Positions 3,887-62,586 of a stretch of 64,000 nucleotides of DNA are shown here, piece after piece. The notes under the pieces are model-generated. The model was not told where the DNA came from and did no database searches. It saw nothing but the letters and a program-made list of their open reading frames with translations. The position numbers were made by a program, and so were the translations under genes. Within the stretch, counting starts at the first letter, position 1. Each line of letters starts with the position of its first letter. Source of the stretch: Saprospiraceae bacterium (GTDB lineage Bacteria; Bacteroidota; Bacteroidia; Chitinophagales; Saprospiraceae); contig JAKVCU010000062.1 in the NCBI GenBank assembly GCA_022448955.1, forward strand, positions 10,379 to 74,378. Reading direction: 5' to 3'.

Positions 3887-4007
3887 CATCTTTTTGGCCT
3901 ATCGGCAAAGCTATTTATTCTACACCATATCAAGTAGATTGGTAGATATTGAATTAAAATTGCTTACTTATGTATTGTTAGGTGAAAATAGTAAGTTGCT
4001 GTTAAAT

Positions 4008-4164
4008 ACACTGTAATTTAAGTTTGTTATTGTTTTTAAACGGCTGGTTTTCACTCAGCATAATTTGCGGTGGTGCCTAATAGTCATAGTTATTAAGGCG
4101 AGTATGCAATACATGCTGAGTAAAAAGGCGTCTTCAAGATGTAAATTAATTTAGATTACAGTGT
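4008..4164 (+). repeat. palindromic MITE-like dispersed element, copy A
   Basis: Perfect 10-bp terminal inverted repeats ACACTGTAAT/ATTACAGTGT, internal ACTCAGCA/TGCTGAGT, and homology to the reverse complement of 34977-35134. Confidence 0.8.
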
Positions 4165-4324
4165 GTTGAATATAGAGTTATGTGTATTTTTTGTAGGGAC
4201 TCAAAGCCGTTATTCTTCAGTTGAGGTTTTGTCCTCATTTATGTAATTGATCAAAACAACTCAAAGAATACATTTTCAAACAAGTTCTTATATTTGGGTT
4301 TCCATAAATTAATCAATTATCACT

Positions 4325-5325: not shown

Positions 5326-5449
5326 GCTTTATCAGTCAAAAAGGAAAAGATTAGAATTGATTAGTCATTAACATAAACGAATTTTGTTATACTTGCACAA
5401 GAACGTAAACACATTCAGTTATCTAACGCATAACGCATTACAATCCAAT

Positions 5450-7063
5450 ATGAAGAACTTTTTATTCTCTTTGCTTCTTTTGGTGGGAATGACCTCCGGA
5501 ATATGGGCACAAAATGCATCAGATTTTTACGAAGTCAATTCGATCCAATCTCTAAAAATCAGTTTCGATCAGGACAATTGGAAATACGTACTCGACTCTC
5601 TACGCTTTAATGGCGATGGCTTAATGCTTGGAGATATTGAGATTAATGGACAAAAGCTCACTGATGTTGGTGTTCGTTATAGAAAATCTCGAACCTTCCG
5701 TCCAGGCATGAATCGGAATGCCTTATTTATCAAGCTGGACTATATTCGTAAAGGCCAGAATTATCAAGGTCACCGGGTTATTGAGCTTTCCAATGCACTT
5801 CGCGACCCCAGTATGATTCGTGAAGTTCTTTCTTTTGAAATTGCACGTAACTACATGCCGGCTCCTAGAGCTAATTATGCAAAGATTGATATAAATGGGG
5901 CATATTATGGACTTTTTATCAATCTTGAATCTGTCAATGACGCTTATTTAGAAAGAGCCTTTGGATCTTCTAAAGGCGCATTTTTTAAGAGTACGCCTAA
6001 TTCTAAAGAAAAAGCACCACTAGATTGTAAAAGTAATGTTTATGGAAGTTTACAATATGACAATGCCCCCAAATGTTATTTGAATAATTTCACAATGCTC
6101 TCTGATGATGGTTGGGGCGAATTGTTCGAGTTAACCAGAGTGTTGGAAGAAGAACCTCAAAATATTGAGAACATCTTAGATGTAGATGAAACATTGTGGA
6201 TGTTGGCTTTTAATAATATCCTAGTAAATTTAAGTAGCTACTCTGGTAAAGCATCGCAAAAGTATTACTTATACCAAGATAAGGCGGGGCGTTTTCATCC
6301 AGTAGTTTGGGATTTAAACTTCTCCTTTGGTAGTTACAAAAATACAGGGGTAGGTTCAGATCTTGGGTTTGTAGATTTAGTATCCCTTGATCCTATGCTT
6401 CACGCTGACAATCCAGAAAAACCATTAATCAGCCAGTTGTTGAAAATAGAAAAATATAAAAAGATTTATATCTCTCATTATCGAACTATTTTATACGATC
6501 ACTTCGTAAATGCTAATTTTGAAACTAGATCAAAAGAATTACAAAATTTAATCTTGCAAGCATTTACTGACGATCAAAATAGATTTTACAATACGGAACA
6601 ATTCTCCAAAAGCTTGACTTCTACCATTGGTAAGCGCAGTAAAATTCCGGGAATTGCTCAATTAATGAATAAGCGAGCTTCTTTCTTGAAGAAAAATGAT
6701 TTTTTTGCAGTTTTACCTCCCCTTGTCAAAAATATTTCAGTTACAAAAAGAGAGCAGTTTGCCAGTGAAAAAGTGCAAGATTTTAAAATCCAAGCAAGTT
6801 TTAAGCAGTTTCCCAAAAATGTAAAAATTTATTATCGCTTTGCAGGTGATAAAGCCTATCAGTCTACCGCAATGATGGATGATGGTGCACACAATGATGG
6901 AGATGCAAATGATTATACTTACGGTGTGATGATTAAACCTCCAAGTGGGAAAGACGTTATAGAGTATTACATTGAAGCAGAAAACCCCAAGTCAATAAGC
7001 TACAGTCCATCAAATTATATGTTCAAGCAGCATACGGCTAGTTTGAAAGCATTAAATGAATAA
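5450..7063 (+). CDS. CotH-family spore-coat-kinase-like secreted protein (copy 1)
   Basis: Signal peptide from ATG 5450 (MKNFLFSLLLLVGMTSGIWAQ); DVGVRYRKSRTFRPG, YGLFINLESV, HPVVWDLNFSFGSY; paralogous to the next gene. Confidence 0.85.
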   Translation: MKNFLFSLLLLVGMTSGIWAQNASDFYEVNSIQSLKISFDQDNWKYVLDSLRFNGDGLMLGDIEINGQKLTDVGVRYRKSRTFRPGMNRNALFIKLDYIRKGQNYQGHRVIELSNALRDPSMIREVLSFEIARNYMPAPRANYAKIDINGAYYGLFINLESVNDAYLERAFGSSKGAFFKSTPNSKEKAPLDCKSNVYGSLQYDNAPKCYLNNFTMLSDDGWGELFELTRVLEEEPQNIENILDVDETLWMLAFNNILVNLSSYSGKASQKYYLYQDKAGRFHPVVWDLNFSFGSYKNTGVGSDLGFVDLVSLDPMLHADNPEKPLISQLLKIEKYKKIYISHYRTILYDHFVNANFETRSKELQNLILQAFTDDQNRFYNTEQFSKSLTSTIGKRSKIPGIAQLMNKRASFLKKNDFFAVLPPLVKNISVTKREQFASEKVQDFKIQASFKQFPKNVKIYYRFAGDKAYQSTAMMDDGAHNDGDANDYTYGVMIKPPSGKDVIEYYIEAENPKSISYSPSNYMFKQHTASLKALNE

Positions 7064-7222: not shown

Positions 7223-8902
7223 TTGCTTGGTATCTTTGCTATTGGCAGAATGAAAAAAATTATCGAAAACAAAAACCTCAAGATTATGAGCAGGTATTGG
7301 TCTGCTACACTAGTACTTATTTGCATACCTTTTCTTTTCCTTTTAGGTCAAAAAAACAAGGAGGTTGAAGATATTTATCAATTGGATAATATCCTTGAAG
7401 TAAAAATCTATTTCCAAGAGGCAAACTGGGATCAAATACTCGATTCCTTGAAGCAAGAAGGAAAAGATGGACGGCTAGTAGGCAAAGTCATAGTTAATGG
7501 AAAAACATACGAACAAGCAGGGATTCGTTACAAGGGAAATAGCTCCTATTATAGTGTAAGAAAAAGTGGCCGATCAAAGCTGCCTTTCAACATTAAAGTT
7601 GATCATATTAAAAAAGATCAAGAATTTCCAGGTGGTTATGGAACTCTAAAACTTTCGAATGTTTTCCGTGATCCAAGCTTCCTTCGGGAAGTCTTATCTT
7701 ACGAAATTGCCAGAGAGTATATGTTTGCACCAAGGGCAAACTTTGCAAAGGTATATGTTAATGATACATATTTAGGTTTGTATAACAATACCGAATCTGT
7801 GGATAAAATGTTTCTGAGGAATAGCTTTGGTGAAGACAAAGGCGTATTCTTCAAGTGTGATCCCAATTGGCATGCAGATAGGCCTTCTTTCTGCAAAGAG
7901 GGGGATAAATCCTCCTTAATGTACTTGGGAGAAGATACCCTCTGTTATCAAAGCTACTATGAAATTAAATCGGCATATGGCTTTGGCGAACTAGTGGATT
8001 TGACAGCTATTTTGAATAAAAGGATTGATTTGATGGAGACCGTTTTGGATGTCGATCAAACCCTTTGGATGCTGGCCTTCAATAATGTACTGGTTAACTT
8101 AGATAGCTATAATGGAAAATTCTGCCATAATTATTATCTATACCAAGATAAAGAGGGCGTCTTTCATCCTATTCTTTGGGATATGAATCTTTCTTTCGGT
8201 GGTTTTCGATATGATGGACTGGGGTCGCCGCTCTCTAACGAGAAAATGCAACGTATGAGTCCATTCATGCATTATAAAACTAAAAACCCCAAACGCCCTC
8301 TTATAACCAAACTATTGGCTGAAGATCTTTACCGTAAGGTTTATGTAGCGCATATACGCACTATTTTAAATGACTTTTTTGTAGACTCTACCTACCTGAA
8401 AAAAGCAGAAGCTATCCAAACAATCATTTCGCCATTAGTAGAAGCAGACACTAATAAATTATATAAATTGGATGCCTTTCAACAAAATGCAACAAAAAGT
8501 GCTAAGGCAGATAAATCTTCTATCATTGGCCTCGAAGAACTCATGGGCCCTAGAACTAACTATTTGATAAATCATCCTTTGATCAAAACGCCAGCACCAA
8601 TTATTTCAGAGGTGAAAGCGATTGATTTTGGTGATCTAATTGCAGTAAATGCTACTTTTGATGGGGCACAAAGAGCTTGGTTGATGTACCGGCAAAGCAA
8701 AAAAGGAACCTTCAAAAGAGTGGAAATGTTTGATGATGGTGGTAATAGCGATGGAGTAGGTGGAGATGGTATATGGGGAGCTACTGTTGATATGGAGAAA
8801 AAGAAAAAGAATTTTCAATATTATATCATTGCAGAAGGAGCAAAGGCAGCAGCACTTTCTCCTGAAAAGGCCTCTTCCGAATTTCATACTTTAAAACGAT
8901 GA
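7223..8902 (+). CDS. CotH-family secreted protein (copy 2; start may be 7250 or 7286)
   Basis: GIRYKGNSSYY, LGLYNNTESVD, HPILWDMNLSFGGF; same architecture as the preceding gene. Confidence 0.85.
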   Translation: MLGIFAIGRMKKIIENKNLKIMSRYWSATLVLICIPFLFLLGQKNKEVEDIYQLDNILEVKIYFQEANWDQILDSLKQEGKDGRLVGKVIVNGKTYEQAGIRYKGNSSYYSVRKSGRSKLPFNIKVDHIKKDQEFPGGYGTLKLSNVFRDPSFLREVLSYEIAREYMFAPRANFAKVYVNDTYLGLYNNTESVDKMFLRNSFGEDKGVFFKCDPNWHADRPSFCKEGDKSSLMYLGEDTLCYQSYYEIKSAYGFGELVDLTAILNKRIDLMETVLDVDQTLWMLAFNNVLVNLDSYNGKFCHNYYLYQDKEGVFHPILWDMNLSFGGFRYDGLGSPLSNEKMQRMSPFMHYKTKNPKRPLITKLLAEDLYRKVYVAHIRTILNDFFVDSTYLKKAEAIQTIISPLVEADTNKLYKLDAFQQNATKSAKADKSSIIGLEELMGPRTNYLINHPLIKTPAPIISEVKAIDFGDLIAVNATFDGAQRAWLMYRQSKKGTFKRVEMFDDGGNSDGVGGDGIWGATVDMEKKKKNFQYYIIAEGAKAAALSPEKASSEFHTLKR

Positions 8903-34725: not shown

Positions 34726-34813
34726 GGAGGAGTGGCAGAGCTGGTTTAATGCACCGGTCTTGAAAACCGGCGTACGAGAAATCGTACCGGGGGTTCGAAT
34801 CCCTCCTCCTCCG
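34726..34813 (+). tRNA. tRNA-Ser(UGA)
   Basis: Acceptor GGAGGAG/CTCCTCC, anticodon stem CCGGT/ACCGG with loop CTTGAAA (TGA anticodon), long variable arm, T-loop TTCGAAT, discriminator G, CCA not encoded. Confidence 0.97.
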
Positions 34814-34828
34814 CTTTATTTTTTATAC

Positions 34829-34873: not shown

Positions 34874-34976
34874 TCATTTTTGAGAAATGACTTAAGCTCA
34901 GCCTTAAAACAAGAAACAAAAGCCTACCTGCTTGAAATATAAATTGATGAAATTTGGGATAACTTTTGATATAAGT

Positions 34977-35134
34977 ACACTGTAATCGTCATTACTTTGC
35001 ATTTTGAAGGGGGTATTTTACTCAGCTCTGCCTTGGGTACTCGCCTTAATAGCTATGGCTATTACGCTCCGCCACCCCTTAAGCTGAGCAAAAATTAGCT
35101 GGTTCAAAGTTCCAATAAACTTAAATTACAGTGC
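34977..35134 (-). repeat. palindromic MITE-like dispersed element, copy B
   Basis: ACACTGTAAT ... ATTACAGTGC termini (one mismatch); reverse complement aligns over its length with 4008-4164, sharing CTGTAATTTAAGTTT, CTCAGC, TATTAAGGCGAGTA, GCTGAGTAAAA and GATTACAGTGT. Confidence 0.8.
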
Positions 35135-35399
35135 AATAGTTTATTTTGTAGGAAATTTGCTTAGATAGCGCTTTGGTACTGAAGTTCCCTTTGAATACTT
35201 TAGCCAGAAGGGCGTTTTTCTTTTTGAATAATTAATCAAAGAACATAAGGTTTTGGTATCAATTTATCATGGGCTCATTTTTTCTTAATGTTTTCCAAGT
35301 TGATCCTTTGAACTTTCTGGAGGTCAGCTCGTTCTTTTCATATCGATAAAATAGAAGCGAGAGATTTCCATTTTTTATGTCAGATTAATCTAATGTAAG

Positions 35400-49927: not shown

Positions 49928-50313
49928 AATCAGGTAATGTGCAGTATTTTTTCAAAAAGACAATTTTACTCCTTAGTCTATAATGCTGGTCTTACGCCTT
50001 CTACCTATACAACCCGCTACCACACAGAGCAGAAATGCCCTTTTGTAATATTGATCAGTGATCAGTAATATTCTACTGCAATTAGCCTTATGAAAAGAAA
50101 AATTGGCCTAGCCTAAATTGTAAAAAAATTGCTACTGATTTAATAAGAGAAAGTCATAGTAAGATAATTTTAGCTTTGAAACCTCGAGAAAGCCTGTCTA
50201 CAGAAAAGAATGATGGAGTATGGCATGTGTTTCGTGGCTAATGTGATTTTAAACTTTTAAAAGCTTATCGCAAGAAGTTAAATAAAATTAGTTGAACAAG
50301 AAATACCATAAAA

Positions 50314-56616: not shown

Positions 56617-59600
56617 ATGCTTAACGCAAAGTACTTTCTTTCTTCATTAATCTTAATGACAGTGGTAACTGAGCTTAGTTTTTCTCAGATCAATACACCT
56701 CCCATTGCCACAGTCCCCTTTGGTTCAAATCTTGGATATTCTGGATACGTTATGCTTCCGGAAAATCTACCGACTAATGGAATTTATGGTCATGCTCAAG
56801 ATGCAGCGGATGCATACAATCAATGGAAAACTAACTATATTGAAGATTGCGGAAATGGGCAATATCGTGTGCGTTGGGATGAACCTGATAAAACAGTTTC
56901 AGAAGGAACTGCTTATGGAATGTTGCTCGCAGCTTATGCGGCTGATTTTGTCTTATTTGATGGACTTTGGTCCTATTACAAAGAAAGAAGGAATGGTAAT
57001 GGATTAATGGATTTTAAAATAGATGGATGTACCCTTAATGTACTTGGCTTTGGTTCAGCGTCTGACGGAGATATAGATGCAGCGATGGCTTTATTGGTTG
57101 CATCACACCAATGGCCAAGTTATTACGAAATCGATGCTGCAAATTTGATTAATGCTATAAAAGAATTCGAAATCGATACTGTTCAAATTGATGGCCTTGA
57201 TTATTTGCAATTAAATAATGGTGATACATGGTCTTCTTCAGAGGATTGTAGAAACCCAAGCTATCAGGGTCCTGCATATTTTAGAAAATTTGGAGCTTTT
57301 ACGAATGATATTATATTTTGGGACCAATGTGTTGAAGCAAGTTATCAACTACTAGACAACAATGCTGATATTAATACCGGCCTTGTGAGCAATTGGTCGG
57401 ATAGGAATGGAAATCCAAATAGTTGTAATGGGGCAAATGAGTACGGTTACGATGCCTGTCGTAATCCATGGCGAATGGCTACAGATGTTGCATGGTTTAA
57501 TGATACCAATGCAAAAAACATATGTAACAAAATTGCTGGGCATGTCCAAAGTATAGGATCCCATGTAGCTGGTGGGCCAGTTGCTCAAAGCGGTGGTGTA
57601 GGATTATATCATAATGCAACTTTTGTTTCGACTTTCGCTCTTGCTGTGATGGCAGGGGATACGATCTACCAATCTTTACTAGATGAAATGTATCTGGAGA
57701 CTGTAAATACTCAAGACTCATTACCGTTTTATTTTGGAAACACCTTAAGGTGTATTTCTTTATTTATGATGACAGGTAATTTTTGGAATCCTACTAGTCA
57801 AAATACGGGTCTCATTATGCCAGGCTATATTACAGATTCAAAGGTAATGGATCTAATTGGGCCTGAATTACTATTTTTAAGTGAATTTGGTTCCAATGAT
57901 ACTTCCATGTTGTCGGAATCCCTCTTGCAAGTCAATAGCGAAAACAAGGTTTTAATTGAAATTTTAGTTTTAGATGGACAATACGAAAATACTATCTCTT
58001 ATTTAAACACCATTGGAATTACAACGAATGATTTTGTAAAAGACCAAGTTTCAGGTATATCGGATAGTTTGTTGATCACTGCTTTTTTTCCTGTCGAATC
58101 ATTAGAGCTTCTAAATCAACAAAATCCATTGATAAATTTTGTAAGGCCTGTAAACACAGCGCTGACTAATTCAGGTTTAATTGATAGCCAAGGTGATATT
58201 GCACAGGGATCTTTTTTTGCAAGGTCAGGTTGGAATCTTGATGGGGAAGGCATTAAAATTGGAGTGATTTCGAATAGTTATGCTACAAATGAATCTGCTA
58301 GAGTTAACGATATAAATAACGGAGATCTGCCCGGAGATGATAATCCAGTTCAAGTGGTTGAAGAATATCCATATGGTGTGGCTTCTGATGAAGGTCGAGC
58401 GATGTTACAAATCATTCACGATATTGCCCCTGCCAGTCAGCTGTTTTTTCATACTGGATTTGTGAGTGAAGCGAATTTTGCCTACGGAGTTAGACAATTA
58501 AGAGAAGAGGGTTGTGATATTATAGTTGATGATGTCCAATATACAACTGAACCCTTTTTTAGAGATGGCCTAATTGCGCAAGCAATTGACGAGGTGACAG
58601 CAGCTGGGACCTATTATTTTAGTGCCGCAGGAAACTTCGGCTCACGATCTTTTTCTGACACTTTTACTCCTGCTCCCTCTCCTAATGAGGATAAGCATGA
58701 TTTTGGAAATGGCAATTACCTGCAAAGTGTAGAATTAGGGGTTGGAGATTATATTATTGTCCTTCAATGGGATGATGAGTTTTATTCATTAGGTGATTTG
58801 AATGGTGCCTCTGTAGATTTGGACATTTACTTAGTTGAAGACGATGGTACTATTCTTTATGGGTTTAATAGGGATAATAATGGAGATGAAACAAGCGGAA
58901 CTCCAGGAGGAGATCCAATAGAAATTTTACCCTTCTCAGTGGAAAGTGAAACGACCTCCAATATTATGATTCAAATGGATGGTTCTGGAGCGATGCCGGC
59001 ATTTAAATATGTTGTTTTCCAAGCTGGGGATGAAGGGATTTTTGAGGCGAATCCTCCTTTAACCGATGATACAGGTGGGGCGACTATCGTTGGTCATGCA
59101 AATTCAGAAGGATCCATAACAATTGGAGCTACAAGATATTCAAATACACCTAATTACGGTAACCAGCTAAGTCTTGAGTCTTTTTCCTCAATTGGTGGTA
59201 CTCCTGTAAACGGCGTGGTAAGACAAAAACCTGATTTAGTTAGTGCAAATGGAGTGAATACATCAGTTGACTTTAGTTCATTAGATTTAGAAGATGATGG
59301 TATTCCTAACTTTTTTGGAACATCTGCAGCCGCTCCTCATGCCGCTGCTGCTGCTGCTTTGCTTCTTGATGCCCAAAATAAATTTGACTTTAATCCTAGT
59401 GTTGACCCCAGAGCATTATTGACAAATAATGCTATTGATATGGGAGATCTAGGCTTTGATTACCATAGTGGATATGGCTTTATTGACGTGGAGGCAGCGC
59501 TCTCAGAGATAGCAAATCCCAGACCTGAGTTAATCCGATTAAATCTCGCGAATTTGGATACGATGATTTATGAACCAGGTGAGATTCAGTTCGATTTGAT

Positions 59601-62586
59601 CATGGAGTGCGCTTTTCTTACAGATTCTTCTACTGTCGTACTAGATGGTAACGAATTAGAAACTACAATTATCGATGATTCTACTGCAACGGTTACCATT
59701 CCTTTATTCACAGGTAACCCGGGTATTTGGGTATCTAATCCTTCAAAAGCTATCACAAATGGAACAGATGGAGGCAATTCAGATACCTTAAGGTTTTTTG
59801 ATCAAGTGTTGTACGAGGTGATCGTTACAGTTGACCCAAGTACTAAAAGATATGGTGAAGAGCTTCCAAGCTTTTCATTTTCTACTTCGATCCCCGCTTT
59901 GGATTCTACTCTAACACAGGAAGAATTGGAGCTATTAGAGCCAGCTATTAGCTTTACAACAGCAGCTACGGCAGCTAGTAATATAGGTATTTATAGTGTT
60001 GAAGCAGATACTTTAAATATACCAGAGAGTCTGCTAGCATCCTATGAATTCACCCTAGAGCCAGGGGCATTAACCATCGATACGATGCCTCTTATTATTC
60101 GACCCGTTGCTATAAATCCAATAACCTATGGAGATGAAGTTCCAGAAATTACTTTCGAATATATATTTGGGGAAGATGGAGAGGACGTTGAGATTAATTC
60201 AGAGGTGGCAAATACCATCGCATCACAACATTCAGAGGCCTTGTCTTTAGTGAATGGCCTCGCCTTGGTGAATGGCCTCGCCTTAGTGAACGGCCTCGCC
60301 TTGGTGAATGGAGAACTCTTCCTAGATGGCTCTGATAATGGGGCTACCTCAAATGGTATACCACTGATTAATAAGACTTTTTATGTCTCTGAGCGAGTGC
60401 TGGCCGATGCGCCTACTTCATTATCATTGGGTATCGCTTTGGTCAACGGAAATGGAACTGAGCAAATTGTAGAAATTGGAGCAGATTTGTTTACCCAAGA
60501 AAATATAGATAATGGCTCTTTATCTAGCTTTACCAATGGCCTTGCTCTAGTAAATGGCATACCTTTGGTCAACGGCCTTGCTTTAGTGAATGGTATCGCT
60601 TTAGTGAATGGTATCGCCTTAGTGAATGGTATCGCCTTAGTCAATGGCTTGGCACTTGTCAATGGCATAGCACTTGTTAATGGCATTCCACTTGTCAATG
60701 GAATCCCTCTTGTAAATACAGATGGAACTTATGATCCATTATTTGCGGCCTTTGAGGAAAACTATGTGGTTTTGAATACGGATGATTCCGATTCGAACGT
60801 TGATGAGCCAATAAATATTTTCCCAATTAATACAATCACAGGATTGGATCCAGGTACGCAATATATTATTCCAGGCGGGTTTTTTAATGATAATTTAAAG
60901 ATTAATTACGCACCTAGGGCTTTCGAAGTCTATCCTGGACCAGAGATTTCTTGTCCATCAAATCAAGTTGTATCCATTACCGATATGGGAAGTTGTGCTG
61001 TCGACGTTGATTTGACCAACCCAACGAATGAAAATACTGCTATTATTGCAAATACGCTTACCTTAAGTATTAATGATCTTACACCTGAGACAGTTAGTCA
61101 AGGAGATGTTATATCCAAAACATTTGACGTTGGGATAACTGTATTAACATACACTATTACGGATGATAATAGCAATACAGATAGCTGTAGTTTTACGATT
61201 ACTGTCAATGATGTGGAAGATCCAGTAATTACATGTCCAGCAGATATAATTATAAATACGGATATAGGAAATTGTGATGCTGTAGTTAATTACAACACTC
61301 CAGTAGGTACCGATAATTGTACAGAACCCATAACCATATTATCATCGGGCTTAGGTTCTGGATCTACTTTTCCGATCGGTACAACAACAGAAAGTTATAC
61401 AGTAACCGATGGTTCCAATAATACCGCGAGCTGTACTTTTACGGTAAGTGTTTCAGATAATGAACCACCAATGGCTATTTGCTTAGACACTCTAGTTGTA
61501 TTTAATGGCGAGGACTCCATATCTGTCTCTCTGTCTAATTTATATGATGAATTGTCTACTACAGATAATTGTAGTGCTGTTAGTTTGGTATCTTCGATGA
61601 TGGACCAGATAGTTACTTGCGATCAGCTTGGTGACATTATAGAAGTAAATATTGAAGTCAGTGATGAAAATGGAAATTTGGGTTCCTGTTTAGCGAATAT
61701 TTTTGTAGAAGGGTTGCCATGTGGTTTCTCAAATACTTTTGGGCTTGATGATTGTTTTGATCCCCAAGAAAATGAAGCTTATTATGATGCTGCTTCGGAT
61801 GTATTTACCTTAACGAGTGATGGCTGTAAACCAGAATTTCCGTATACAACGGATGATCAAAGCTTTATTACTTATGAGATATGTGGTAATGGAATAATTG
61901 AAGCTTTTGTAAATGATATAAATGGAAATGGTTTTGCTGGAGTTCAAATGCGTGAGAGCGTTGATATGGAGTCTGCACCAAGAGTTGCACTAGGCATAAA
62001 CAGAGTAAATAAAATACTTAAGGAGATTAGGATCTTTTCTAATTATCCAGTATTCCCACAACAATTATTAACCTTTAATACTCCGTTCTGGTTGAAGATA
62101 GAACGCTTATATGGATTTTATTTTAGAGCCTATGCTTCTTCGGATGGGGTTAATTGGACACCATATATTGCCCAATCTGTTTCCATGGATCACTGTATTC
62201 AAGTAGGGTTATTTGTTCAGAGTTCGGTAGATGGACAAGCGGTAAATGCTGAATTTACTGATGTTACAATTACCGAGACAAATAATGCTATTAATAGTAA
62301 TGGCTCAGTCTTTGAAAGCGATCTAAAATCTACATCTACTTTAAATATTGGGCTTTCGCCAAATCCAGCAACTGATGAAATATTTTTAGACTTAAGCCAA
62401 TTCATTGGTCAAGAGGTGAGTATTCAAATATGGAATATTAATAGTCAGCTCTTGGCTGACCGGAAGATTCAAGATCTTGAAAATCCGATAGAGATTCTTA
62501 CAATCAATCAACTACCGGCAGGAGCTTACTGGGTAAATATTCAAACCGCTAACCAGCAAAAGATTTTAAAATTAATCAAAAAATAA
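56617..62586 (+). CDS. giant multidomain secreted protein: GH8 + S8-like peptidase + MBG + LVNG repeats + HYR + T9SS sorting domain
   Basis: GH8 VSEGTAYGMLLAAY/SDGDIDAAMALL; S8 GIKIGVISNSY...GTSAAAPHAAAAAALL; HYR-like DVEDPVITCPADI...; C-terminal LSPNPATDEIFLDLSQF...GAYWVNIQTANQQKILKLIKK. Confidence 0.88.
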   Translation: MLNAKYFLSSLILMTVVTELSFSQINTPPIATVPFGSNLGYSGYVMLPENLPTNGIYGHAQDAADAYNQWKTNYIEDCGNGQYRVRWDEPDKTVSEGTAYGMLLAAYAADFVLFDGLWSYYKERRNGNGLMDFKIDGCTLNVLGFGSASDGDIDAAMALLVASHQWPSYYEIDAANLINAIKEFEIDTVQIDGLDYLQLNNGDTWSSSEDCRNPSYQGPAYFRKFGAFTNDIIFWDQCVEASYQLLDNNADINTGLVSNWSDRNGNPNSCNGANEYGYDACRNPWRMATDVAWFNDTNAKNICNKIAGHVQSIGSHVAGGPVAQSGGVGLYHNATFVSTFALAVMAGDTIYQSLLDEMYLETVNTQDSLPFYFGNTLRCISLFMMTGNFWNPTSQNTGLIMPGYITDSKVMDLIGPELLFLSEFGSNDTSMLSESLLQVNSENKVLIEILVLDGQYENTISYLNTIGITTNDFVKDQVSGISDSLLITAFFPVESLELLNQQNPLINFVRPVNTALTNSGLIDSQGDIAQGSFFARSGWNLDGEGIKIGVISNSYATNESARVNDINNGDLPGDDNPVQVVEEYPYGVASDEGRAMLQIIHDIAPASQLFFHTGFVSEANFAYGVRQLREEGCDIIVDDVQYTTEPFFRDGLIAQAIDEVTAAGTYYFSAAGNFGSRSFSDTFTPAPSPNEDKHDFGNGNYLQSVELGVGDYIIVLQWDDEFYSLGDLNGASVDLDIYLVEDDGTILYGFNRDNNGDETSGTPGGDPIEILPFSVESETTSNIMIQMDGSGAMPAFKYVVFQAGDEGIFEANPPLTDDTGGATIVGHANSEGSITIGATRYSNTPNYGNQLSLESFSSIGGTPVNGVVRQKPDLVSANGVNTSVDFSSLDLEDDGIPNFFGTSAAAPHAAAAAALLLDAQNKFDFNPSVDPRALLTNNAIDMGDLGFDYHSGYGFIDVEAALSEIANPRPELIRLNLANLDTMIYEPGEIQFDLIMECAFLTDSSTVVLDGNELETTIIDDSTATVTIPLFTGNPGIWVSNPSKAITNGTDGGNSDTLRFFDQVLYEVIVTVDPSTKRYGEELPSFSFSTSIPALDSTLTQEELELLEPAISFTTAATAASNIGIYSVEADTLNIPESLLASYEFTLEPGALTIDTMPLIIRPVAINPITYGDEVPEITFEYIFGEDGEDVEINSEVANTIASQHSEALSLVNGLALVNGLALVNGLALVNGELFLDGSDNGATSNGIPLINKTFYVSERVLADAPTSLSLGIALVNGNGTEQIVEIGADLFTQENIDNGSLSSFTNGLALVNGIPLVNGLALVNGIALVNGIALVNGIALVNGLALVNGIALVNGIPLVNGIPLVNTDGTYDPLFAAFEENYVVLNTDDSDSNVDEPINIFPINTITGLDPGTQYIIPGGFFNDNLKINYAPRAFEVYPGPEISCPSNQVVSITDMGSCAVDVDLTNPTNENTAIIANTLTLSINDLTPETVSQGDVISKTFDVGITVLTYTITDDNSNTDSCSFTITVNDVEDPVITCPADIIINTDIGNCDAVVNYNTPVGTDNCTEPITILSSGLGSGSTFPIGTTTESYTVTDGSNNTASCTFTVSVSDNEPPMAICLDTLVVFNGEDSISVSLSNLYDELSTTDNCSAVSLVSSMMDQIVTCDQLGDIIEVNIEVSDENGNLGSCLANIFVEGLPCGFSNTFGLDDCFDPQENEAYYDAASDVFTLTSDGCKPEFPYTTDDQSFITYEICGNGIIEAFVNDINGNGFAGVQMRESVDMESAPRVALGINRVNKILKEIRIFSNYPVFPQQLLTFNTPFWLKIERLYGFYFRAYASSDGVNWTPYIAQSVSMDHCIQVGLFVQSSVDGQAVNAEFTDVTITETNNAINSNGSVFESDLKSTSTLNIGLSPNPATDEIFLDLSQFIGQEVSIQIWNINSQLLADRKIQDLENPIEILTINQLPAGAYWVNIQTANQQKILKLIKK
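60247..60312 (+). repeat. in-frame ~18-bp tandem repeat, block 1 (LVNG x4)
   Basis: Encodes LVNGLALVNGLALVNGLALVNG. Confidence 0.9.
60529..60714 (+). repeat. in-frame ~18-bp tandem repeat, block 2 (about ten LVNG/LVNT units)
   Basis: Encodes FTNGLALVNGIPLVNGLALVNGIALVNGIALVNGIALVNGLALVNGIALVNGIPLVNGIPLVN. Confidence 0.95.

Follow-up and report, generated by a model that had tools for sequence, protein, structure and literature searches.

A probable family-wide lineage of hairpin MITEs with a conserved folded core in the Saprospiraceae

The intergenic palindrome near position 4,000 of the window, which is the whole 64,000-nucleotide stretch of Saprospiraceae DNA that was analysed, is very probably a decayed MITE, a non-autonomous DNA transposon whose roughly 160 bp form a single long, imperfect hairpin. 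The analysis goes beyond what a sequence-only reading of this DNA had offered: the element belongs to a group that extends across the bacterial family and whose core is conserved and covaries. Our best reading is a MITE lineage that spans the bacterial family and is ERIC-like in style, where the kind of element is known and the lineage is new. There are two copies in the window, and their features are as follows.

4007 to 4165, plus strand: MITE copy A, whole element of 159 bp, oriented like the consensus
4002 to 4006, no strand: left flank of copy A, TTAAA, putatively one half of a target-site duplication
4166 to 4170, no strand: right flank of copy A, TTGAA, putative other half of the duplication
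4007 to 4040, plus strand: left tip and outer arm of copy A (TACACTGTAATTTAAG...)
4041 to 4133, plus strand: inner core of copy A, conserved across Saprospiraceae genera and scoring 57.9 bits with covariance model R1; it comprises a 14-bp stem, internal loops and a hairpin tip
4078 to 4095, plus strand: hairpin tip of copy A, TAATAGTCATAGTTATTA
4134 to 4165, plus strand: right outer arm and tip of copy A (...ATTTAGATTACAGTGTG)
34976 to 35135, minus strand: MITE copy B, whole element of 160 bp, reversed

The sequence-only reading had drawn the two blocks at 4008-4164 and 34977-35134, and the family consensus extends both blocks by one base at either end. The perfect terminal inverted repeats that it described (ACACTGTAAT at 4008-4017 and ATTACAGTGT at 4155-4164), the nested pair (ACTCAGCA at 4053-4060 and TGCTGAGT at 4114-4121) and the core near-palindrome are all found where it put them. 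The reverse complement of 34977-35134 does align with copy A along the full length, with inverted arms of 101 nt (75% identity) and 50 nt (78% identity). That reading saw no ORF inside; an element of this length allows none beyond about 52 codons. The predicted fold of the copy A block has an energy of -52.5 kcal/mol (z = -6.7), which none of 200 shuffled sequences equalled. The flanks of copy A match at four of five positions, with one mismatch, where the duplication pattern in the family is YTNAR; those of copy B (ACTAT and CTTAT) match at three of five. The core of copy B, at 35008-35101, scores 66.6 bits with the covariance model. A third core match at window positions 50063-50137 is weak (E 0.08) and was judged to be due to chance. 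A tRNA-Ser (tga) gene is located at 34726-34814, some 160 bp before copy B, and no sign was seen that it served as an insertion target.

There are 48 matches to the element in its own genome, a 6.4-Mb draft assembly of 230 contigs, and they represent about 40 distinct places; four more were reached through a related query, giving about 44. The 160-bp consensus reads TACACTGTAATTTAAG...AATTTAGATTACAGTGTA, and the copies have flush tips, TAC...GTA in this tip type. Individual copies are 82-95% identical to the consensus (5-18% away from it) and on average 81% identical to one another. Most differences are private to single copies in a star-like radiation, and therefore the own-genome family is an old burst that is now decaying. 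None of 50 copies lies inside an ORF, the copies being intergenic, and their orientation relative to neighbouring genes shows no bias (16 v 15). Several copies carry internal deletions, some six of them between two AAGGCG repeats: loci L137, L138, L140, L141, L142 and L146 lack the same AAGGCG-to-AAGGCG stretch and with it the hairpin tip. They may form a subfamily, or the same slippage deletion may have recurred.

Target-site duplications, which the sequence-only reading had suggested looking for, were found, and they are 4-5 bp long. For the own genome and a congener together, the five nucleotides before TAC match the five after GTA at a frequency of 0.65, v 0.50 when shuffled (p < 1/3000). 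The duplications are clearest in two other genomes with young families, G015 (MAG DT_111), where copies are flanked on both sides by CTAAG, CTTAG, CTCAG, TTAAA or CTAG, and G510, where the flanks are TTTAA or TTAAA. In these two families combined, 16 of 28 copies have perfect 5-bp duplications, compared with 2.3 when shuffled. The target consensus is YTNAR, and the duplicated sequences (CTNAG, TTTAA, TTAAA, CTAG) in young families show that the elements transposed. As expected of a MITE, then, the element is short and non-coding (159-160 bp), is dispersed in about 44 places, and has terminal inverted repeats at common endpoints and target-site duplications supported by permutation tests. The proposal of a MITE-like non-coding palindrome is thus upheld by endpoints that the copies have in common and by flanks that pair above the shuffled level.

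Tip types II and III (in G030, part of G015, and G499) are invariably flanked by TA and show no duplication longer than this. Because these types show TA flanks alone, only tip type I has an established duplication, and a single mechanism may not serve every type. A TA-only duplication of the IS630-like kind fits types II and III and fails for type I. Another possibility is that only 3 bp, TNA, are duplicated and that the end base varies. This fits the copies with CTNAG, but the linked outer bases seen with TTTAA and TTAAA would then go unexplained. In the congener (G001), the orthologous interval is without the element, but 7.7 kb of other genes are located there and the region is rearranged. 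G510 also holds a 31-bp micro-element that consists of little beyond both tips (TGCACTATAAATTAAGTTAATCTATAGTGTA) with CTTAG on either side (locus L316, about 4000-4045, G510:C36).

Related families of 158-160 bp occur in G001, G015, G030 and other genera. Their tips differ, while the inner part resembles the own-genome element. A covariance model built on the inner 94 nt, with the tips left out, matches 84 of 149 Saprospiraceae genomes and 69 of 113 genera, with E-values down to 4e-20. In a phylum-wide sample of some 292 Bacteroidota genomes outside the family, four match weakly and none below 1e-5; the E-values of this model are rough, and the contrast between inside and outside carries more weight than any single value. 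The sequence-only reading had suggested that such a model be built and the genome searched, and had named as the outcome that would count against it the existence of only two copies with no relatives. What is found is a dispersed family with common endpoints, rather than a chance hairpin, and related families in other genera.

Other searches were narrower in their yield. An exact core pattern, which proved too strict, was found only in the own genome among 389 genomes of the class, and a similar pattern run over GTDB contigs hit three named MAGs, of which two carry the label Saprospiraceae. No match to the element was present in plasmid and phage collections. The element belongs to no known Rfam family at the gathering cut-off, and when six loci with copies were scanned permissively against Rfam, there were only five sub-threshold matches, none of which overlaps the element. 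A literature search found no description of Saprospiraceae MITEs of this kind, which is not proof that none exists.

Some copies carry extra small palindromes (CCCGATAGCTATCGGG; CCTGTCGGGCCGCCAGGCGGG) in the hairpin tip, at or beside the loop, as if REP-type hairpins tended to land there; they are L118 and L120 in G030, L049 and L056 in G001, and L085, L160, L161 and L163 in G015. In another genome, G506 (L257-L263), the core element is found within a larger GC-rich repeat (CGCTATGCT.CGGGGCTCGC...) and may be carried as part of that bigger repeated unit.

The stems covary between families. In a set of 33 elements, almost every one from a different genus, which were aligned by fitting to the model, there are 202 double-changed pair cells v 56 when shuffled (score 0.503 v 0.145), and a model-free alignment of 14 sequences from seven families agrees (57 v 17). 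Mismatches in the outer arms, which lie outside the covariance model and whose alignment treats G.T and A.C alike, comprise 61 G.T v 11 A.C on one strand (p 1.5e-9); the elements counted are not independent, and G.T exceeds A.C in nine tip types and ties in one. When the whole arms and unpaired core of seven families are taken, the count of G.T v A.C is 27 v 21, with no bias, and it is the larger set of outer arms alone that is biased. Within the own genome, pairing is at the level expected from shuffling (87.3 v 87.4%) and newly arisen mismatches are split about evenly between G.T (71) and A.C (58); the G.T/A.C ratios of outer arms between families and of own-genome copies differ (Fisher p 2e-5). 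Since covariation and G.T bias are present across genera and neither is present within the own genome, the simplest reading seems to be that the folding of a strand of fixed polarity is important as long as an element still multiplies, and no longer once a copy has landed. That strand could be RNA or single-stranded DNA, between which these data do not distinguish, or the polarity might reflect a strand-specific mutation bias in active elements. The fold, more than the sequence, is what evolution has kept.

We tentatively propose that the inner hairpin is a long-lived replicating unit that has swapped its outer tips and helper transposase many times in the history of the Saprospiraceae, its multiplication requiring throughout that a single strand, RNA or DNA, of one fixed polarity be folded. 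In our main reading, a transposase of the DDE class acting in trans, which may be of the IS5 type, would cut at the tips. Folding of one strand of defined polarity, either RNA or single-stranded DNA, would be needed or favoured during multiplication, and landed copies in the own genome would decay without a host function.

A competing explanation, which we regard as somewhat doubtful, is that DNA symmetry alone is at work: both arms would bind one transposase and drift together with its specificity, and no strand would fold. Inverted ends bound by one transposase would indeed covary. However, this explanation predicts equal numbers of G.T and A.C on each strand, which is the balance seen in decaying copies and not in the outer arms between families. 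Nor does it account for the internal-loop sequences, which are conserved yet not symmetric.

It is improbable that the element serves its host as a structured RNA or a regulatory hairpin, dispersed by happenstance and maintained by selection on resident copies. A strong single-strand fold that covaries across genera, arms that tolerate G.T on one strand, conserved internal-loop sequence, and an A.G/G.A purine-purine position shared by 25 of 33 elements are all features that such an RNA might have. Resident copies in the own genome, however, pair no better than shuffled ones and show no G.T excess, their core decays at the same rate as the arms, their orientation to genes is random, and no Rfam family is matched.

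Very unlikely is spread as REP/REPIN-like palindromes by a RAYT (Y1) transposase instead of a DDE transposase. The element is palindromic, intergenic, present in many copies and without an ORF, and REP-type hairpins occur in the tips of some copies, but it is 158-160 bp long, is bounded by terminal inverted repeats and duplicates 4-5 bp of its target. Single-strand Y1 transposition, as performed by IS200/IS605-type elements, is not known to produce such duplications. Chance palindromes or an assembly artefact, for which one might cite the draft state of the 230-contig assembly and the abundance of short palindromes in AT-rich intergenic DNA, are refuted by common endpoints at about 44 places, the z-score of the fold, related families in many independent assemblies and clean duplications.

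As for a helper, we found no autonomous element with the same tips by whole-element queries of G000, G001, G015, G030 and G510, draft assemblies that can lose repeats. Mobilisation by a transposase encoded elsewhere had been flagged as inferential from the start, and aptly so. One-ended matches in G030, G015 and G510 were considered as possible autonomous copies, and all are solo intergenic remnants with no transposase nearby. The DDE_Tnp_1 transposases of G000 and G015 were rejected as partners because the ends of their elements differ. IS5-family elements (DUF4096 with DDE_Tnp_1) are present in G015 (L215) and G000 (L216), and both examined copies are located between TAA repeats in a YTNAR-like context similar to that of the MITEs. 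Their target style is alike in its TNA core, but their tips (GAAGGTGTTTAAAA and GATCATGTTTAAA) are unlike the MITE tips, and an IS5-type helper or parent is a candidate only. The IS5-type element at L216 (G000:C198:62000-66000) adjoins or lies inside another transposase gene, which looks like an IS630 type.

Two other features of the window were observed. An 18-bp tandem unit (peptide LVNGLALVNG...) forms two blocks at 60227-60701 within an ORF at 56617-62586 that encodes a predicted protein of 1989 amino acids. Adjacent ORFs at 5384-7063 and 7223-8902 each encode a predicted protein of 559 amino acids, have 172 nt at 70% DNA identity, and look like a tandem duplication; their products may resemble CotH-type proteins.

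Bacterial MITEs are usually viewed as short-lived deletion derivatives of a single insertion sequence, and their hairpin as a by-product of inverted ends. In this lineage the ends change, and the length, core and fold stay across a bacterial family. Covariation and G.T bias that exist between families and are absent after insertion suggest that the fold is used in mobilisation, and the vague question of whether MITE hairpins do anything is thereby made testable. The lineage is a tiny mobile-element group, previously unlabelled, in over half of the sampled Saprospiraceae genomes, many of which gain a repeat annotation.

Several known systems can be compared with this element. REP and REPIN sequences are hairpin units of 20-30 bp that are spread by a RAYT and are not known to make a target duplication, whereas the present unit is 160 bp long and makes duplications of 4-5 bp. 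BrickBuilt, MITE239, MITE464 and MITE700 of Porphyromonas gingivalis are also Bacteroidota MITEs, and some of their tips match IS5-family insertion sequences (PMC4596501). They differ in having tips that begin GAGACC, internal tandem repeats (BrickBuilt) and no conserved hairpin core (PMC4596501). The Correia or NEMIS elements of Neisseria are about 107 or 155 bp long, in forms with and without an internal segment, and resemble ours in their terminal inverted repeats, target duplications and long RNA stem-loop (PMC2229807). Their 24-bp repeats have TA termini and their hosts belong to another group; no sequence relation was found or expected, and the present element is not one of them.

There is a likeness in style to ERIC (IRU, RU-1) of enterobacteria, a 127-bp intergenic imperfect palindrome with many copies that is also family-wide (PMC2229807). 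Both are short intergenic palindromes that require no ORF, and the ERIC transcript has a stable fold (PMC2229807). A role in mRNA stability has been proposed for ERIC and NEMIS transcripts. The present element is not a member of ERIC or IRU, since it is hosted by Saprospiraceae and its core occurs outside that family only as weak matches; it has another sequence and a length of 158-160 bp. ERIC has TA-type ends, in contrast to the 5-bp YTNAR duplications found here, and the Saprospiraceae tips change between genera around a core that is conserved.
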